This document shows positions 11,718 through 17,716 of a stretch of DNA of 64,000 bases, piece by piece. Made by a program: the position numbers and the translations under genes. How positions within the stretch are numbered: position 1 is the first letter of the stretch; each line of letters opens with the position of its first letter. The notes under the pieces were generated by a model. It saw only the letters and a program-made list of their open reading frames with translations, had not been told where the DNA came from and did not search any database. Origin of the DNA: Haloglomus litoreum (lineage in GTDB: Archaea; Halobacteriota; Halobacteria; Halobacteriales; Haloarculaceae); contig NZ_CP119988.1 in the NCBI RefSeq assembly GCF_029338515.1, forward strand, positions 682,001 to 746,000. The letters are read 5' to 3'.

Positions 11718-13712
11718 TCAGTCGCCCATCGACACACCCCGGATCTCGAACCGCGCCCCGCCGTCGCTCCCCTCCGTGGCGGTGATCGTCCAGCCGTGCG
11801 CCTCGGCGATGGTCTGGACGATGCTGAGCCCGAAGCCGGTTCCCTCGCTGGCGGTGGAGTAGCCCGCCTCGAACACTGCCTCGCGCTGGTCCGCCGGGAT
11901 GCCGGGCCCGTCGTCCTCGACGTAGAACCCGTCCCCGTCCGGGAGCATGCCGACCGTGACGGTCACCGACCCCCCGTCGGCGACCTGCTGGTCGCCGGCG
12001 TCCCGGTCCTCGGCGGTCACGCGCTCGTCCGTGGAGCCGTGCTCCACACTGTTCCGGAACAGGTTCTCGAACAGCTGCGCGAGGCGGTTGCTGTCGGCCA
12101 TGACCGTCCCGCCACCGTCGATACGGAGGCGGCCCCCGTCGGTCTCGACACCGTTCCAGCACTGCTCGGCGTGGGCGGCGAGGTCGACCCGCTGCAGCTC
12201 GTCGATCGCCTCGCCCTCGCGAGCCAGCGTGAGCAGGTCGTCGATCAGCGTCTCCATCCGCTGGAGTGCGGCGTCGATCTTCCCGACGCTCTCGGAGTCT
12301 GACTCCTCGCGGACGAACTCCAGGTGGCCCCGGGCCACCGCCAGCGGGTTCCGCAGGTCGTGGCTGACGACGCTCGTGAACTCGTCGAGCCGCTCGTTGC
12401 GCTGCTGGAGCGCACGGCGGCTCTCCTCGAGCGCCCGCGTCCGGTCGATGCGGGCCAGCGCCACCTCCACGTTCGCGGCGAGGACCTTCCCCAGCGACAC
12501 CTGCCAGCCCTCGAACCGCTCGGTCGTCGTCGACCCGGCCATGAACACGCCGAACTCGCCCAGCGGGAGGATCACCTCGCTCCGGGTGGGCGCCTGCTTC
12601 CCGCCCGGCGCGGTCCTGACGTCGTCGTACACCTGCGGCTCGCCCGATTCGAACACCTCCCAGGCGAGGCTGTCCCCGGATTTGAACGTCGGCAGCGACC
12701 GCTCGTCGGCATCGGCGGCGTCGGTCGCCGCCGTCGGCACCAGCTCGTCGCGCTCTCCATCGTAGAGCCAGATGGTGTTCGCCCGGAGGCCGAGTACCTC
12801 CTCGGCCGCCTCGGTCGCGATGCGGGCGGCCTCGGCCTCGGTCTCGGCGCGGAACAGCCGCCGCGTCGCGTCGTGGAGGCTCACGAGCCGCTCGCGGTGG
12901 GTCCGGCGGGTGGTGATGTCGCGCGCGATGCAGGCGAGGGCGTCCAGCCGGCCGTCCCGGTAGAGCGGCCGGCCGCTCAGCCACGCCCAGCGGGTGTACC
13001 CCCCCTCGGGGTCCACCCTGAGTTCGATCTCGATGGGGGTCCCCTCCGCGAGGGCATCCAGTTGCGTGCGGAGCTCCTCGCGGTCGTCGGGGTGGACCGC
13101 CTGGAGGAGCGCCGTCGGGTCGCTCTCCAGCTCCGTCGCCGGCCGACCGAACAGCCCCTCGTAGCCCGGGTTGACGTAGAGCGTCCGCGAGCGGTCGGCG
13201 TCGAACAGCCACGCCGCCTGGTCGACGGCTCCGAGGAGCCGTGTCGGCGCGCGCCGCCGCCGGACGGCGCGGGCGCGCCACACCCCGGCGGCGAACCCGG
13301 GTGCCCCGCCGAGACTCCCGGCCACCACCATCGAGCCGACGCCGAGCGTCGACGGGACGAGCGCCGGAACGCCGCCGGGACCGCCCCAGACGGCACCGAC
13401 CCCGCCGACGACGAGCCAGGCGAGCGCCGCCGTCGCGACACCGATGCTCGCGACGTACCACCCGCTCACGACCCGCCACGCGTACCACGAGTACCCGGTC
13501 CGCCGGAGGGCGAGCGCGCCCACCAGGACCAGCACCGGCGGGCCGACGCTCGCCGCCGCCGTGAGCAGCCACGGCTCCCCGGCTGCCTCGGCCGCGAGCG
13601 CGAGCAGCCCGCCGGCGACGGCGTAGCCGATGGCGATGGCGTAGACCGCCAGCTCCGGGACCGACAGGGTCCCCCCTGATTCGTAGCCTCCCCTGTGCGT
13701 GTGTGCGGCCAT
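11718..13712 (-). CDS. Membrane-bound sensor histidine kinase (PAS, GAF)
   Basis: A 664-residue protein with four or five hydrophobic helices in residues 15-145. A PAS domain follows (about 158-268, NPGYEGLFG to RDITTRR), then a GAF domain (about 275-420) and a HisKA domain with phospho-acceptor His451 in VVSHDLRNPLA. The C-terminal HATPase (about 540-655) holds LFENLFRNSVEH, DDGPGIP and GTGFGLSIV. It is an autophosphorylating sensor of unknown signal. The longer open frame upstream is the antisense of endonuclease V and was rejected. A receiver protein lies nearby at 14733-16514 on the same strand and could be its partner, which is inference. Confidence 0.92.
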   Translation of the reverse strand: MAAHTHRGGYESGGTLSVPELAVYAIAIGYAVAGGLLALAAEAAGEPWLLTAAASVGPPVLVLVGALALRRTGYSWYAWRVVSGWYVASIGVATAALAWLVVGGVGAVWGGPGGVPALVPSTLGVGSMVVAGSLGGAPGFAAGVWRARAVRRRRAPTRLLGAVDQAAWLFDADRSRTLYVNPGYEGLFGRPATELESDPTALLQAVHPDDREELRTQLDALAEGTPIEIELRVDPEGGYTRWAWLSGRPLYRDGRLDALACIARDITTRRTHRERLVSLHDATRRLFRAETEAEAARIATEAAEEVLGLRANTIWLYDGERDELVPTAATDAADADERSLPTFKSGDSLAWEVFESGEPQVYDDVRTAPGGKQAPTRSEVILPLGEFGVFMAGSTTTERFEGWQVSLGKVLAANVEVALARIDRTRALEESRRALQQRNERLDEFTSVVSHDLRNPLAVARGHLEFVREESDSESVGKIDAALQRMETLIDDLLTLAREGEAIDELQRVDLAAHAEQCWNGVETDGGRLRIDGGGTVMADSNRLAQLFENLFRNSVEHGSTDERVTAEDRDAGDQQVADGGSVTVTVGMLPDGDGFYVEDDGPGIPADQREAVFEAGYSTASEGTGFGLSIVQTIAEAHGWTITATEGSDGGARFEIRGVSMGD

Positions 13713-13883
13713 CTCGTGTGCCCCCCCGGTCTCGCGTTCCTCTTGCCGCTCCCCCGATAAGTATCTGTACCGTACTTGCCCCGCCAGCGGTGGTCCGGTT
13801 CCCGGCTCCCGACGTGTCGGCCCCCCTGGACGCTCGGCCCCGTGTCCGACAGGTTCCTGCCGCCGCGGGCCGAGTGTCCGGCC

Positions 13884-14648
13884 ATGCGCGCGCCGCCAGC
13901 CCGTTTCGACCCGGACCCGACGCGCTCTCGTGCCGAGATGGAGGCGCTCCAGCGGGAGCTCGTCGAGGAGGCCGTGTTCGCCGACGACCTCCCCGTCGTC
14001 CCCGCCGAGGTGGGCGACGCCGGCGAGGGGGCTCCCGTCGTCGCGGGGGTCGACCAGGCGTTCCGCACGGACCGCGACCCGGAGCAGGCCGTCAGCGCCA
14101 TCGTCCTGTGGCGCGGCGGCGAGGTCCTCGAGCGGGCCCACGCCGTCGTCGACTGCGAGTTCCCCTACGTCCCCGGGCTCCTGGCCTTCCGCGAGGCCGG
14201 CTCCATCCTCGCGGCCTTCGACGCACTCGAGCGCGACCCGGACCTCGCGCTGTTCGACGGGAGCGGCCGCATCCACTTCCGCCAGGCCGGCCTCGCGACC
14301 CACGTCGGCACGGCACTGGACCTGCCCAGCGTCGGCGTCGCCAAATCGCTGCTCTGTGGCACGCCCCGCGAGCCCGTCGACGCGCTCCCGCAGGGTGCTC
14401 GCGTCCCCATCGAGGTCCGCGAGGGCGACGACGTGGACGCTCCCGTCGGGACCGTCATCGGCTACGCCTACCAGAGCCGGCAGTTCCCCGACTCGAAGCG
14501 CATCAACCCGCTGTACGTCTCGCCGGGCCACCGGGTGAGCGCCGAGACGGCCGTCGACCTCGTCGAGCGCTGTGCCGGCGACTACAAGCTCCCCGAGCCG
14601 ACGCGGCTGGCGGACTCGTACGCCGACGAGGTGAAATCGGAGTTGTAG
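13884..14648 (+). CDS. nfi: Endonuclease V
   Basis: A 254-residue protein with endonuclease V signatures. These are VAGVDQAF with the metal-binding Asp, FPYVPGLLAFREAGSI, LFDGSGRIHFRQAGLATHVG and SVGVAKSLLCG. The enzyme nicks DNA near deoxyinosine left by adenine deamination, and in some organisms it also acts on inosine in RNA. The ATG at 13884 gives the usual length; the longer frame upstream lacks family similarity. It lies alone between two minus-strand signalling genes. Confidence 0.92.
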   Translation: MRAPPARFDPDPTRSRAEMEALQRELVEEAVFADDLPVVPAEVGDAGEGAPVVAGVDQAFRTDRDPEQAVSAIVLWRGGEVLERAHAVVDCEFPYVPGLLAFREAGSILAAFDALERDPDLALFDGSGRIHFRQAGLATHVGTALDLPSVGVAKSLLCGTPREPVDALPQGARVPIEVREGDDVDAPVGTVIGYAYQSRQFPDSKRINPLYVSPGHRVSAETAVDLVERCAGDYKLPEPTRLADSYADEVKSEL

Positions 14649-14732
14649 TCGGATATCTGCGACAAATATTGTATGTCGGGTATTAACTCGGAGGGGGTCG
14701 AGTAGTGGGAATCTCCACCCGAGAGACCGTCG

Positions 14733-16514
14733 TCACTCCCGTTCGAGTTCGTCGCTCACCAGCCGGCTCAGTAGCCGGAGGAACGTCCGTTCGGCCGTCG
14801 TGAACGGTTCCTCACGCGGGGCATCCGACGCGAAGAAGACCGTCCCGTACAGCTCGCCGTCGACCGTGACCGGGGTGCCGAGGTACGACCCGAGGCGGAA
14901 CTTCTCGTACGCCGCGTCGCCGCTCCACCCGGCTGCCACGGCGTCCTGTATCTCCATCAGTCCGTCCTGTTGGATGGTCTTCCGGCAGTAGGACTCGGAG
15001 AGCGGGCACGAGTCGCCCGGCCGCAGCAGGTCGTGGTCCCCGCTCGCCTCGATCACCGTCTGGATGCCGTCGCCCGTCGTGGCGTCGTCCACCGTGATCC
15101 GGGTCAGGCAGCCGTACGGGAGCCCGAGTTCCTCCGGCCCGGCGCGCAGGAGCCGGGTGACCTTCTCCTCGAAGCCGAGGTCCGCGTCCGTCGCCACGTC
15201 GAGCACCCGCTGCAGGAACTCGAGCGTCGCCTCCCGCTCGCGTTCACGCTCCTTCTCCTCGGTGACGTCCTCCTGGAACCCGACCCAGTTCCGGAGTGTA
15301 CCGGCCTCGTCGGTGATGGGGGCGATGGTGACCCGGTTCCAGAACTCCGACCCGTCCTTCCGGTAGTTCCGGAGTTCGACGGTCGTCGGCTCCCGGCTGT
15401 CGATGGCCGCTCGCATCGCGGCGACCGGTTCCTCGTCCGTGTCCTCCCCCTGGAGGAAGCGGCAGTTCCGGCCGAGGACCTCTCCCTCGTCGTACCCGAC
15501 CAGTTCGACGAAGTGCTCGTTGACGTAGACGAGCGGGTTGTCCTCCCGGTCGGGGTCGGAGAGGGTGATGCCGATGGGCGCTTTCTCCATCGTCCGGGTC
15601 ATCCGCTGGAGGTCCGCCTCCCGGGTTGTCCGTTCGATAGCGGTCGCGAGGACGTTCGCCACGCTCTGGACGAACGTGACGTCGTCGTCGGTGAAGGTGG
15701 TCCGCTCGACCGTGTGGGCCCCCAGCACCCCCCACGGGTCGTCACGGGACCCGATGAGCACGCTGATACCGCTCACGACGTCGTGGTCGACCAGCAGCGA
15801 TGGCTCCTGGAAGCGGTCCTCGGCCCGGATGTCCTCCACGACGACCGGGGCCTCCGCCCGGAGCGTGTATCCGGCCTGTGAATCCGCATCCGTGCCGACG
15901 GTCGCCTCGCCGACCAGCCCCTCCTGCCAGCCCACCCCCGTACGGAGGAGGAGGTCGTCGTCGGGGCGGTACTGGAGGACCTTGACGTAGTCGGTACCGA
16001 GGGTCTCGGCCACGGCCTCGACCGCCCGTTCGAACAGCTCGCCCGGGGGTGCACCGGCCAGCGCCTGCTGTCCCAGTCCGGCGACGCACCGCTGTTGTTC
16101 GGCGCGGGTCTCGAGCTGCGTCTCCGCCCGGTACCTGGCGACGAGGTTGCCGATCCGGTTCGCCAGCAGCGAGTAGCGGTCGGCCCCCGACCGCTTCCGG
16201 AGGTAGTCGCTCACACCGGCCGAGATGGCCTCGCTTGCGACCTCCTCGCTCCCCTTCCCCGTGAACAGGATGAACGGGAGGTCGGGATACTGCTCCCGAA
16301 CGATCTGGAGGAACTCGATGCCGTTCCGCCCGGGCATCTCGTAGTCGGAGACGATGCAGTCGAACGACTCGGCGGCGAGCCGTTCGACGCCCTCGCTCGC
16401 GCTGGTGGCCGTCACCACCGTCAGCTCGGGCTCCTCCCGCTCGAGGGACGCCCCGACCATCTCCGCGAAATCGGGCTCGTCGTCCACGTGAAGCACCCGC
16501 ACCCCCCGGGTCAT
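14733..16514 (-). CDS. Receiver-GAF-LOV-GAF signalling protein (blue-light sensor candidate)
   Basis: A 593-residue protein. The receiver domain (1-120) has the DDE acid pocket, phospho-acceptor Asp57 in CIVSDYEMPG and Lys87. A GAF domain spans about 135-295. The PAS domain at about 305-418 is a LOV domain, with GRNCRFLQG (reactive Cys351), NYRKDGSEFWN and the glutamine in GFQEDVT, all flavin-binding positions. A second GAF spans about 430-593. No kinase or DNA-binding domain follows, so the output must pass through partners. The protein would combine phosphorelay input with blue-light sensing. It is encoded alone on the minus strand. Confidence 0.9.
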   Translation of the reverse strand: MTRGVRVLHVDDEPDFAEMVGASLEREEPELTVVTATSASEGVERLAAESFDCIVSDYEMPGRNGIEFLQIVREQYPDLPFILFTGKGSEEVASEAISAGVSDYLRKRSGADRYSLLANRIGNLVARYRAETQLETRAEQQRCVAGLGQQALAGAPPGELFERAVEAVAETLGTDYVKVLQYRPDDDLLLRTGVGWQEGLVGEATVGTDADSQAGYTLRAEAPVVVEDIRAEDRFQEPSLLVDHDVVSGISVLIGSRDDPWGVLGAHTVERTTFTDDDVTFVQSVANVLATAIERTTREADLQRMTRTMEKAPIGITLSDPDREDNPLVYVNEHFVELVGYDEGEVLGRNCRFLQGEDTDEEPVAAMRAAIDSREPTTVELRNYRKDGSEFWNRVTIAPITDEAGTLRNWVGFQEDVTEEKEREREREATLEFLQRVLDVATDADLGFEEKVTRLLRAGPEELGLPYGCLTRITVDDATTGDGIQTVIEASGDHDLLRPGDSCPLSESYCRKTIQQDGLMEIQDAVAAGWSGDAAYEKFRLGSYLGTPVTVDGELYGTVFFASDAPREEPFTTAERTFLRLLSRLVSDELERE

Positions 16515-16624
16515 AGCCCCGTTATGGACAGAGCCGTCAAATGAGTTGTGTTAACACGAGACGCGAGCGCCGTCCCCGTCTTCGGGCGCCAGACATAGGC
16601 CCACGGCCGCACAAGGGCTCACCG

Positions 16625-17716
16625 ATGGTCACGAAGGAGGCGTCGTGGGCGTACCGCGACGCGTTCGGGGAGGCGTTCGCGCGGACCTACTTCCGGCGGT
16701 ACGGCCTGGGCGTCGTCTCCTCGGTCGGCATCGGCACCTATCTCGGCGACACCACGGACGAGGCCGACGACCGCTACGAGCGCGCCGTGCGCGAGGCCGT
16801 CGAGTCCGGCAGCAGCGTCGTGGACACGGCGGTCAACTACCGCGCCCAGCGCTCGGAGCGCGCGGTCGGTCGGGCCATCGAGGCCGCCGACGTGGACCGT
16901 GAGGCGCTGCTCGTCGCGACGAAGGGCGGGTTCGTCCCGTTCGACGGCGAGCGCCCCGAGGACGCGGCCGCGTACGTCCGCGAGGCGTGGTTCGAGCCCG
17001 ACCACGCGAGCCCCGATGAGATGGTCCGTGGCAACTGCCTCGCGCCACGCTTCCTCGACCGGTCGCTGGACCTGTCGCTCGACAACCTGGGCCTCGACAC
17101 GGTCGACCTGTACTACGTTCACAACCCCGAGACGCAGCTGGCGGAGCGCGACCGCGACGCGGTGTACGACCTGCTGGAGGACGCGTTCGTCCGACTGGAG
17201 GAGCGCCGGGAGGCGGGCGACATCCGCAACTACGGCATCGCGACGTGGGAGTGCTTCCGGGTCCCGCGGGGCCACCCGAAGTACCTCTCCCTGCCCGAGG
17301 TCGTCCGGCGCGCCCGGGCCGCGAGCGACCGCGCGGGGACGGGCGCGACCGGGTTCCGTGCGATCCAGCTCCCGTTCAACGTCCACATGGCCGACGCGTT
17401 CACGCGCGAGGCCCACGAGGGGCCCGAAGGCCCACAGAGCGCGCTGTCGTTCGCCCACGAGGCCGGGCTGAACGTCTTCGCCAGCGCGCCGCTGAAGCAG
17501 GGCGCCCTCGCCCGCGAGGGTGCCATCCCCGAGGATGTCGCCGCGCGGCTGTCCGGCGAGACCCCCGCCCAGCGGGCCATCAACTTCGCGCGGTCCGCGC
17601 CGGGCGTGACGGCGGCGCTCGTCGGAACCGGCAGCCCCGAGCACGTCGAGGAGAACGTCGGGGCCGGCCGTCACGAGCCGCTCGGCGCCGACGCGTTCGA
17701 CGCCACGTTCGAGTGA
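16625..17716 (+). CDS. Aldo/keto reductase
   Basis: A 363-residue TIM-barrel oxidoreductase. The catalytic tetrad is visible as Asp and Tyr in SVVDTAVNYRAQRSE, Lys in LVATKGG and His in LYYVHNPE. NADPH-binding elements appear near the C-terminus (ALVGTGSPEHVEENV). It should reduce carbonyl compounds, but the substrate cannot be told. It starts at the ATG at 16625, about 110 nt from the divergent receiver-LOV gene. Its insert between residues 100 and 150 makes it longer than typical family members. Confidence 0.88.
   Translation: MVTKEASWAYRDAFGEAFARTYFRRYGLGVVSSVGIGTYLGDTTDEADDRYERAVREAVESGSSVVDTAVNYRAQRSERAVGRAIEAADVDREALLVATKGGFVPFDGERPEDAAAYVREAWFEPDHASPDEMVRGNCLAPRFLDRSLDLSLDNLGLDTVDLYYVHNPETQLAERDRDAVYDLLEDAFVRLEERREAGDIRNYGIATWECFRVPRGHPKYLSLPEVVRRARAASDRAGTGATGFRAIQLPFNVHMADAFTREAHEGPEGPQSALSFAHEAGLNVFASAPLKQGALAREGAIPEDVAARLSGETPAQRAINFARSAPGVTAALVGTGSPEHVEENVGAGRHEPLGADAFDATFE

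Follow-up and report, generated by a model that had tools for sequence, protein, structure and literature searches.

Between nfi, which encodes endonuclease V, and a gene for an aldo/keto reductase (AKR), the 64,000-nucleotide stretch of Haloglomus litoreum DNA analysed here (the window) carries a gene for a protein of 593 amino acids (Table 1). The product proposed earlier from the sequence alone is a real open reading frame; it lies on the minus strand, a point that reading left unsaid, and the plus-strand reading of the same interval is interrupted by stops. Pfam recognizes a receiver (Response_reg, residues 7-112), GAF in two stretches and PAS at residues 315-419, and nothing besides REC, GAF and PAS at E ≤ 0.001. 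Neither Pfam nor our own HMMs found a histidine kinase or an HTH_10 domain in the protein. The receiver-GAF-LOV-GAF layout and the lack of an output domain, both claimed in the sequence-only reading, are thus borne out. A chance origin of the domain assignments is excluded because of the E-values of the matches.

The phosphorylation set of the receiver is complete (D11, D12, D57, T85 and K107), and it includes the Asp57 named earlier as the phospho-acceptor. Judged by these residues the receiver could take a phosphoryl group, and it would presumably be phosphorylated in the cell; the light gating of a phosphorelay put forward in the sequence-only reading is conjectural. A receiver with its phosphorylation residues, followed by nothing but PAS/GAF domains, is also what distinguishes the output-less REC-(PAS/GAF)n class of regulators, and the window protein has both features.

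Table 1. Features at the locus, in window coordinates.
Feature	Positions	Strand	Remarks
REC-GAF-LOV-GAF protein, without output domain	14733..16514	minus	593 aa ORF; Pfam, own HMMs
Receiver (REC) domain	16140..16514	minus	aa 1-125; Pfam, own HMMs
First GAF domain	15615..16094	minus	aa 141-300; Pfam, own HMMs
LOV domain	15261..15602	minus	aa 305-418; NCBIfam, solved-structure match, alignment, predicted fold
TGC codon of adduct-forming Cys351	15462..15464	minus
Second GAF domain, the protein's end	14736..15194	minus	aa 441-593; Pfam, own HMMs
nfi (endonuclease V)	13776..14648	plus	left flank of the LOV gene
Aldo/keto reductase (AKR)	16625..17716	plus	right flank of the LOV gene
Nearby histidine kinase, PAS-GAF-HisKA-HATPase	11718..13712	minus	664 aa; not part of the LOV unit

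The LOV gene stops about 85 bases from the convergent nfi. In all three congeneric genomes nfi and AKR are direct neighbors: about 71 bases separate them in two genomes and about 451 in the remaining one, the surrounding gene order is kept, and no ortholog of the LOV gene occurs in any of them. Therefore, the gene is either extra here or was lost elsewhere. No mobile-element signature was seen in the form of a common 8-14-base word, direct or inverted, between 14641-14760 and 16501-16640, and no partner gene conserved beside the LOV gene is seen at the locus. Upstream of the LOV gene, before the divergent AKR gene, lies a perfect palindrome, GTGTTAACAC (window 16548-16557). It is statistically weak: it has one match in the window, and at least one match (up to one mismatch) occurred in 26 of 100 shuffles.

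The LOV domain

The stretch from MTRTMEK to GFQEDVT resembles the LOV domain of YtvA above all. The top NCBIfam match is the YtvA family of blue-light photoreceptors (E 1.8e-44), covering only the LOV part of that model and scoring below its full-length cut-off. The top match of the product among solved structures is the YtvA LOV domain itself (2pr5, E 1.5e-33), other LOV proteins being matched as well. The motifs singled out by the sequence-only reading all lie where it had placed them: GRNCRFLQG (residues 348-356) with Cys351, NYRKDGSEFWN (NYRKDG at 383-388, FWN at 391-393), and the glutamine of GFQEDVT (Gln414). The protein therefore carries, with its cysteine, the GxNCRFLQ motif that marks LOV photoreceptors. 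When aligned with YtvA of Bacillus subtilis, the domain shares 52 of 106 residues with it and keeps N350, C351, R352, Q355, N383, N393 and Q414, of which we take N383, N393 and Q414 to be the equivalents of flavin-contacting residues in YtvA. YtvA presumably has no kinase, like the window protein, but presumably ends in a STAS output and has neither REC nor GAF, unlike it. A cysteine at the adduct position is present in all 103 aligned LOV sequences, the 102 others having been selected by motif.

The predicted structure is consistent with a LOV/PAS fold. The LOV region is modeled at a pLDDT of about 81-94, and Foldseek returns LOV structures, with target TM values of 0.87-0.95 for single LOV domains such as 9vf7, 2pr5, 3t50 and 9vf8. 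The full-length model has a mean pLDDT of 61, and its two GAF regions are poorly modeled, probably for want of sequences, the alignment having just 12.

At residue 410 a Trp replaces a Phe of YtvA. The site is variable among the 103 aligned LOV domains (Tyr in 48, Trp in 33, Phe in 20, His in two), and this spread is in line with the remark on the position in PMC12202551, by which a Trp or Tyr there may quench the flavin. The same source describes ALovD-1, a haloarchaeal LOV protein with an experimental photocycle that functions up to 3 M salt. As described there, ALovD-1 and the Halonotius LOV histidine kinases resemble the window protein in being haloarchaeal LOV proteins with the photocycle residues, but differ in having a histidine kinase and three PAS domains, with LOV the second, and ALovD-1 has Tyr48 where the window protein has F353 (PMC12202551). 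Among the sequences collected here, that of Halonotius pteroides (L014; LOV identical at 75 of 119 residues, 63%) likely belongs to the ALovD-1 ortholog family as that source presents it: it is 726 aa long counted from the first Met and has C46, Y48, Y30, Y36 and R44, residues that we numbered by hand counting.

The flavin binding and adduct formation foreseen in the sequence-only reading are well supported, as predictions, by the conserved residues, the predicted fold and the published photocycle of ALovD-1; the window protein would be expected to bind flavin and to photocycle. To judge by its residues, its LOV domain is an intact-looking, canonical and ordinary member of a known family. Haloarchaea commonly carry LOV domains, and the sensor is ordinary for the group. 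A strong match to the window LOV stretch (E ≤ 1e-25) occurs in 261 of 292 genomes of the class, a count of similarity to the stretch in which the cysteine was checked for part of the rows. The host genome itself has eight LOV-stretch matches at E ≤ 1e-5, of which five are without the cysteine motif and three have it, namely the window protein and two domains in histidine kinases. The third of the host's cysteine-bearing domains (G000:C1:2489368-2489703) reads GEDCRFLQ, with Asp replacing the usual Asn before the Cys, and sits in a GAF-LOV-GAF-PAS-PAS-HK protein.

Relatives and the missing output domain

The closest relative, L118 (G317 C2:146145), comes from another family of the same order and is a REC-GAF-LOV-PAS-GAF-HK protein. 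The two are 65% identical over residues 2-439 of the window protein and share the LOV cysteine and the last GAF, which in L118 matches the window protein up to its stop. L118 then continues into a kinase; its additional parts are one PAS and a complete histidine kinase core. From the L118 layout, the window protein is therefore the same arrangement minus one PAS and the kinase. Further relatives also carry kinases (L124, REC-LOV-GAF-HK; L135, REC-PAS-LOV-GAF-HK). A full-length protein of the window layout is found in none of 391 genomes of the class and none of 146 of the family, the host's own aside, and so gives no sign that the truncated form is conserved. In a tree of REC-GAF sequences the window protein falls in none of the starred groups.

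That the kinase had been split off, or shifted out of frame, immediately after the gene was considered and is rejected. The kinase of L118, used as a query over 3 kb, finds none directly 3′ of the gene and matches only the separate nearby kinase. The LOV/PAS part of L118 gives a weak match, also within that nearby kinase gene.

How unusual a LOV protein without output is was judged from 94 distinct cysteine-bearing LOV reading frames. These comprise the three of the host genome, those of loci L044-L072 and L136-L195, which are most, not all, of the better-scoring LOV-stretch matches in the class, and L118, L124 and L135, which entered through whole-protein similarity. By our HMMs, 67 have a histidine kinase, 21 have HTH_10 and six have neither. 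Besides the window protein, the six include L054 and L060, which are cut by the ends of their loci and whose longer pieces (L217 and L216) contain kinases; L160, with a kinase in another frame; L177, with a kinase behind one in-frame TAG; and L148, a fragment with no kinase or HTH_10 whose frame stops 77 bases from the contig end. Among the 94, the window protein alone is clearly without an output in frame or directly downstream.

Some of these frames are odd in their own right. In L177 (2297-4582), a REC-PAS-LOV-GAF frame is parted from its HK core by the TAG, at a place where the frame of relatives continues; it could be a nonsense mutation, a sequencing error or a split gene. L160 is a REC-PAS-LOV-HK arrangement whose kinase is out of frame, probably by a frameshift or sequence error. 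In L216, as in L137 and L173, the order is unusual in that the HK core precedes the LOV domain (GAF-HK-PASn-LOV-PAS).

A survey published in 2014 lists 167 archaeal LOV proteins, and in its account all of them are of two kinds, with HTH or with a kinase: HTH is present in 30% of the halobacterial ones, and the remaining archaeal ones are called LOV kinases (Losi et al., 2014; PMC4844311). Its bacterial tally includes 20 LOV proteins with a directly attached response regulator. The archaeal proteins of the survey are built of the same RR, GAF and PAS blocks as the window protein, but the latter is of neither kind: it has no HisKA and HATPase, as in the archaeal LOV histidine kinases, and no C-terminal HTH_10, as in the Bat-like LOV-GAF-HTH_10 class. 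In build it agrees with the output-less archaeal REC-PAS/GAF regulators, which likewise have only GAF/PAS after the receiver. As presented by Galperin et al. (2018; PMC5847659), these are a described class of which no member had been studied at the time; the main text of that paper does not use the word LOV, whereas the window protein has such a domain. The literature searched, of partial coverage, yielded no output-less archaeal LOV regulator. What is new is the combination, the LOV domain and the output-less class being each already known.

Kinase-less relatives of REC-GAF-PAS layout are present in five genomes of another genus, g6 (L122 in G295, L128 in G142, L130 in G364, L131 in G197 and L132 in G186), and the 7-7.5 kb of sequence surrounding each showed no kinase. 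They lie beside CheF; CheR, a HEAT-repeat protein and a second CheF are found around them, CheF and CheR having been named by Pfam in L132 only. Possibly they belong to the haloarchaeal taxis system as a component not yet studied. CheF is present in the congeners G001 and G002 and was not found in the host or in the congener G003 (81% complete), where a loss of taxis is possible.

What the protein may do

The likeliest view, to which we give about even chances, sees in the window protein a response regulator that lacks an output but carries a canonical LOV domain, descends from a kinase-bearing ancestor and acts in trans as an adaptor responsive to light and phosphorylation. This view starts from what can be read in the sequence: the domains and their critical residues, the absence of an output, the position as an extra gene and the kinase-bearing closest relative. 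The ancestor would have been a REC-GAF-LOV-PAS-GAF-histidine-kinase; one PAS and the kinase would then have been lost, kinase loss as the direction of change being something we infer. Blue light would form the flavin-Cys351 adduct; a change at Gln414 and in the helix leaving LOV would then alter dimerisation, and a separate kinase would pass a phosphoryl group onto Asp57 of the receiver. Light and phosphorylation would together set the binding to, or dimer swapping with, another signaling protein, and the window protein would thus work in trans as an adaptor, a competitor or a phosphate sink. For the output-less REC-PAS/GAF class, the expectation of Galperin et al. (2018; PMC5847659) is that phosphorylation triggers dimerisation or, alternatively, that a bound ligand alters the shape of the protein, and that the action is via protein contacts. 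By analogy, we adopt their mechanism for the window protein, with light added as one input. The more specific proposal, that a functional kinase-less LOV regulator pairs with or sequesters the cell's related sensor kinases in trans, one adaptor reading both inputs, we consider possible but rather doubtful. The kinase-less REC-GAF-PAS proteins of g6 are a supporting parallel for the adaptor. Speaking against it are the lack of an ortholog of the same architecture and of a conserved neighboring partner, and the fact that a recent random truncation would likewise end where a kinase would start. The REC-GAF branch of the protein is also longer than usual (0.28, against a median end branch of 0.17 in the same tree), and Trp410 occupies a possible quenching site, though about a third of the LOV domains aligned here have Trp there.

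A less likely alternative, though one with a real chance of being right, is a young truncation without function: a LOV sensor kinase gene would have reached its place between nfi and AKR by copying or import and then shed the kinase end, with decay yet to set in. The gene is extra in one of four congeneric genomes, the protein stops exactly before the kinase, and in L177, also a haloarchaeal LOV kinase, the TAG falls close to this junction. Set against this, the 593-aa frame is intact and conserved residues are retained in all four domains. At columns with at least 95% agreement, the window protein departs at none of four in REC (94 others) and none of two in GAF1 (40 others), counts that rest on few columns, and at one of 30 in LOV (102 others) and none of ten in GAF2 (25 others). 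The sole LOV departure is V339 for Thr, unique among the 103. The GC3 of the gene is 0.918, compared with 0.942-0.956 in three neighbors, and the upstream intergenic space could hold a putative promoter of its own. The intact frame and the kept residues speak against old decay, not against recent truncation. That the protein is instead the light-responsive partner of the nearby histidine kinase, as the sequence-only reading hinted, is improbable. The kinase is on the same strand two genes away, its core shares 56% identity with the L118 kinase, and the phospho-acceptor set of the receiver is intact. However, nfi intervenes on the opposite strand, and the kinase has its own PAS and GAF sensors. 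Two of three congeners, both without the LOV gene, retain this kinase at the same place beside nfi (65% identity), and the third lacks it there; because of this a dedicated LOV-kinase pair is unsupported, the two genes as an evolutionary unit are rejected, and the kinase is unlikely to be the dedicated partner.

Still less probable is a LOV domain that senses redox state or flavin, its cysteine merely inherited and light not the physiological signal. Trp410 near the flavin could quench it, the site being one discussed in PMC12202551, and signaling through flavin photoreduction is possible in LOV proteins that lack the cysteine, as reported in PMC4682037. Yet Cys351 and all other checked photocycle residues are conserved, and the photocycle reported for a haloarchaeal LOV domain in PMC12202551 works at up to 3 M salt. 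We regard as very improbable a blue-light input to taxis, in which the output-less REC-GAF protein would be phosphorylated by CheA and talk to CheF and the archaellum. It draws on the g6 relatives, which adjoin a CheF-like gene in five genomes. It is strongly disfavored because the host genome, 97% complete, has no CheF in protein and Pfam searches, the second of which detected CheF in the controls (G001, G002, G186, G215, G317 and Haloferax volcanii).

If the gene is only a dead truncation, the finding matters little. A LOV-bearing output-less regulator, on the other hand, could be switched by light, so that its partners and effects could be compared between light and dark and in C351 and D57 mutants. 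The window protein adds a third kind to the archaeal LOV proteins, which in the 2014 survey's account were kinases or DNA-binding proteins (PMC4844311). If the adaptor view is true, the output-less archaeal regulators, an unstudied class, would gain a member that light can switch.
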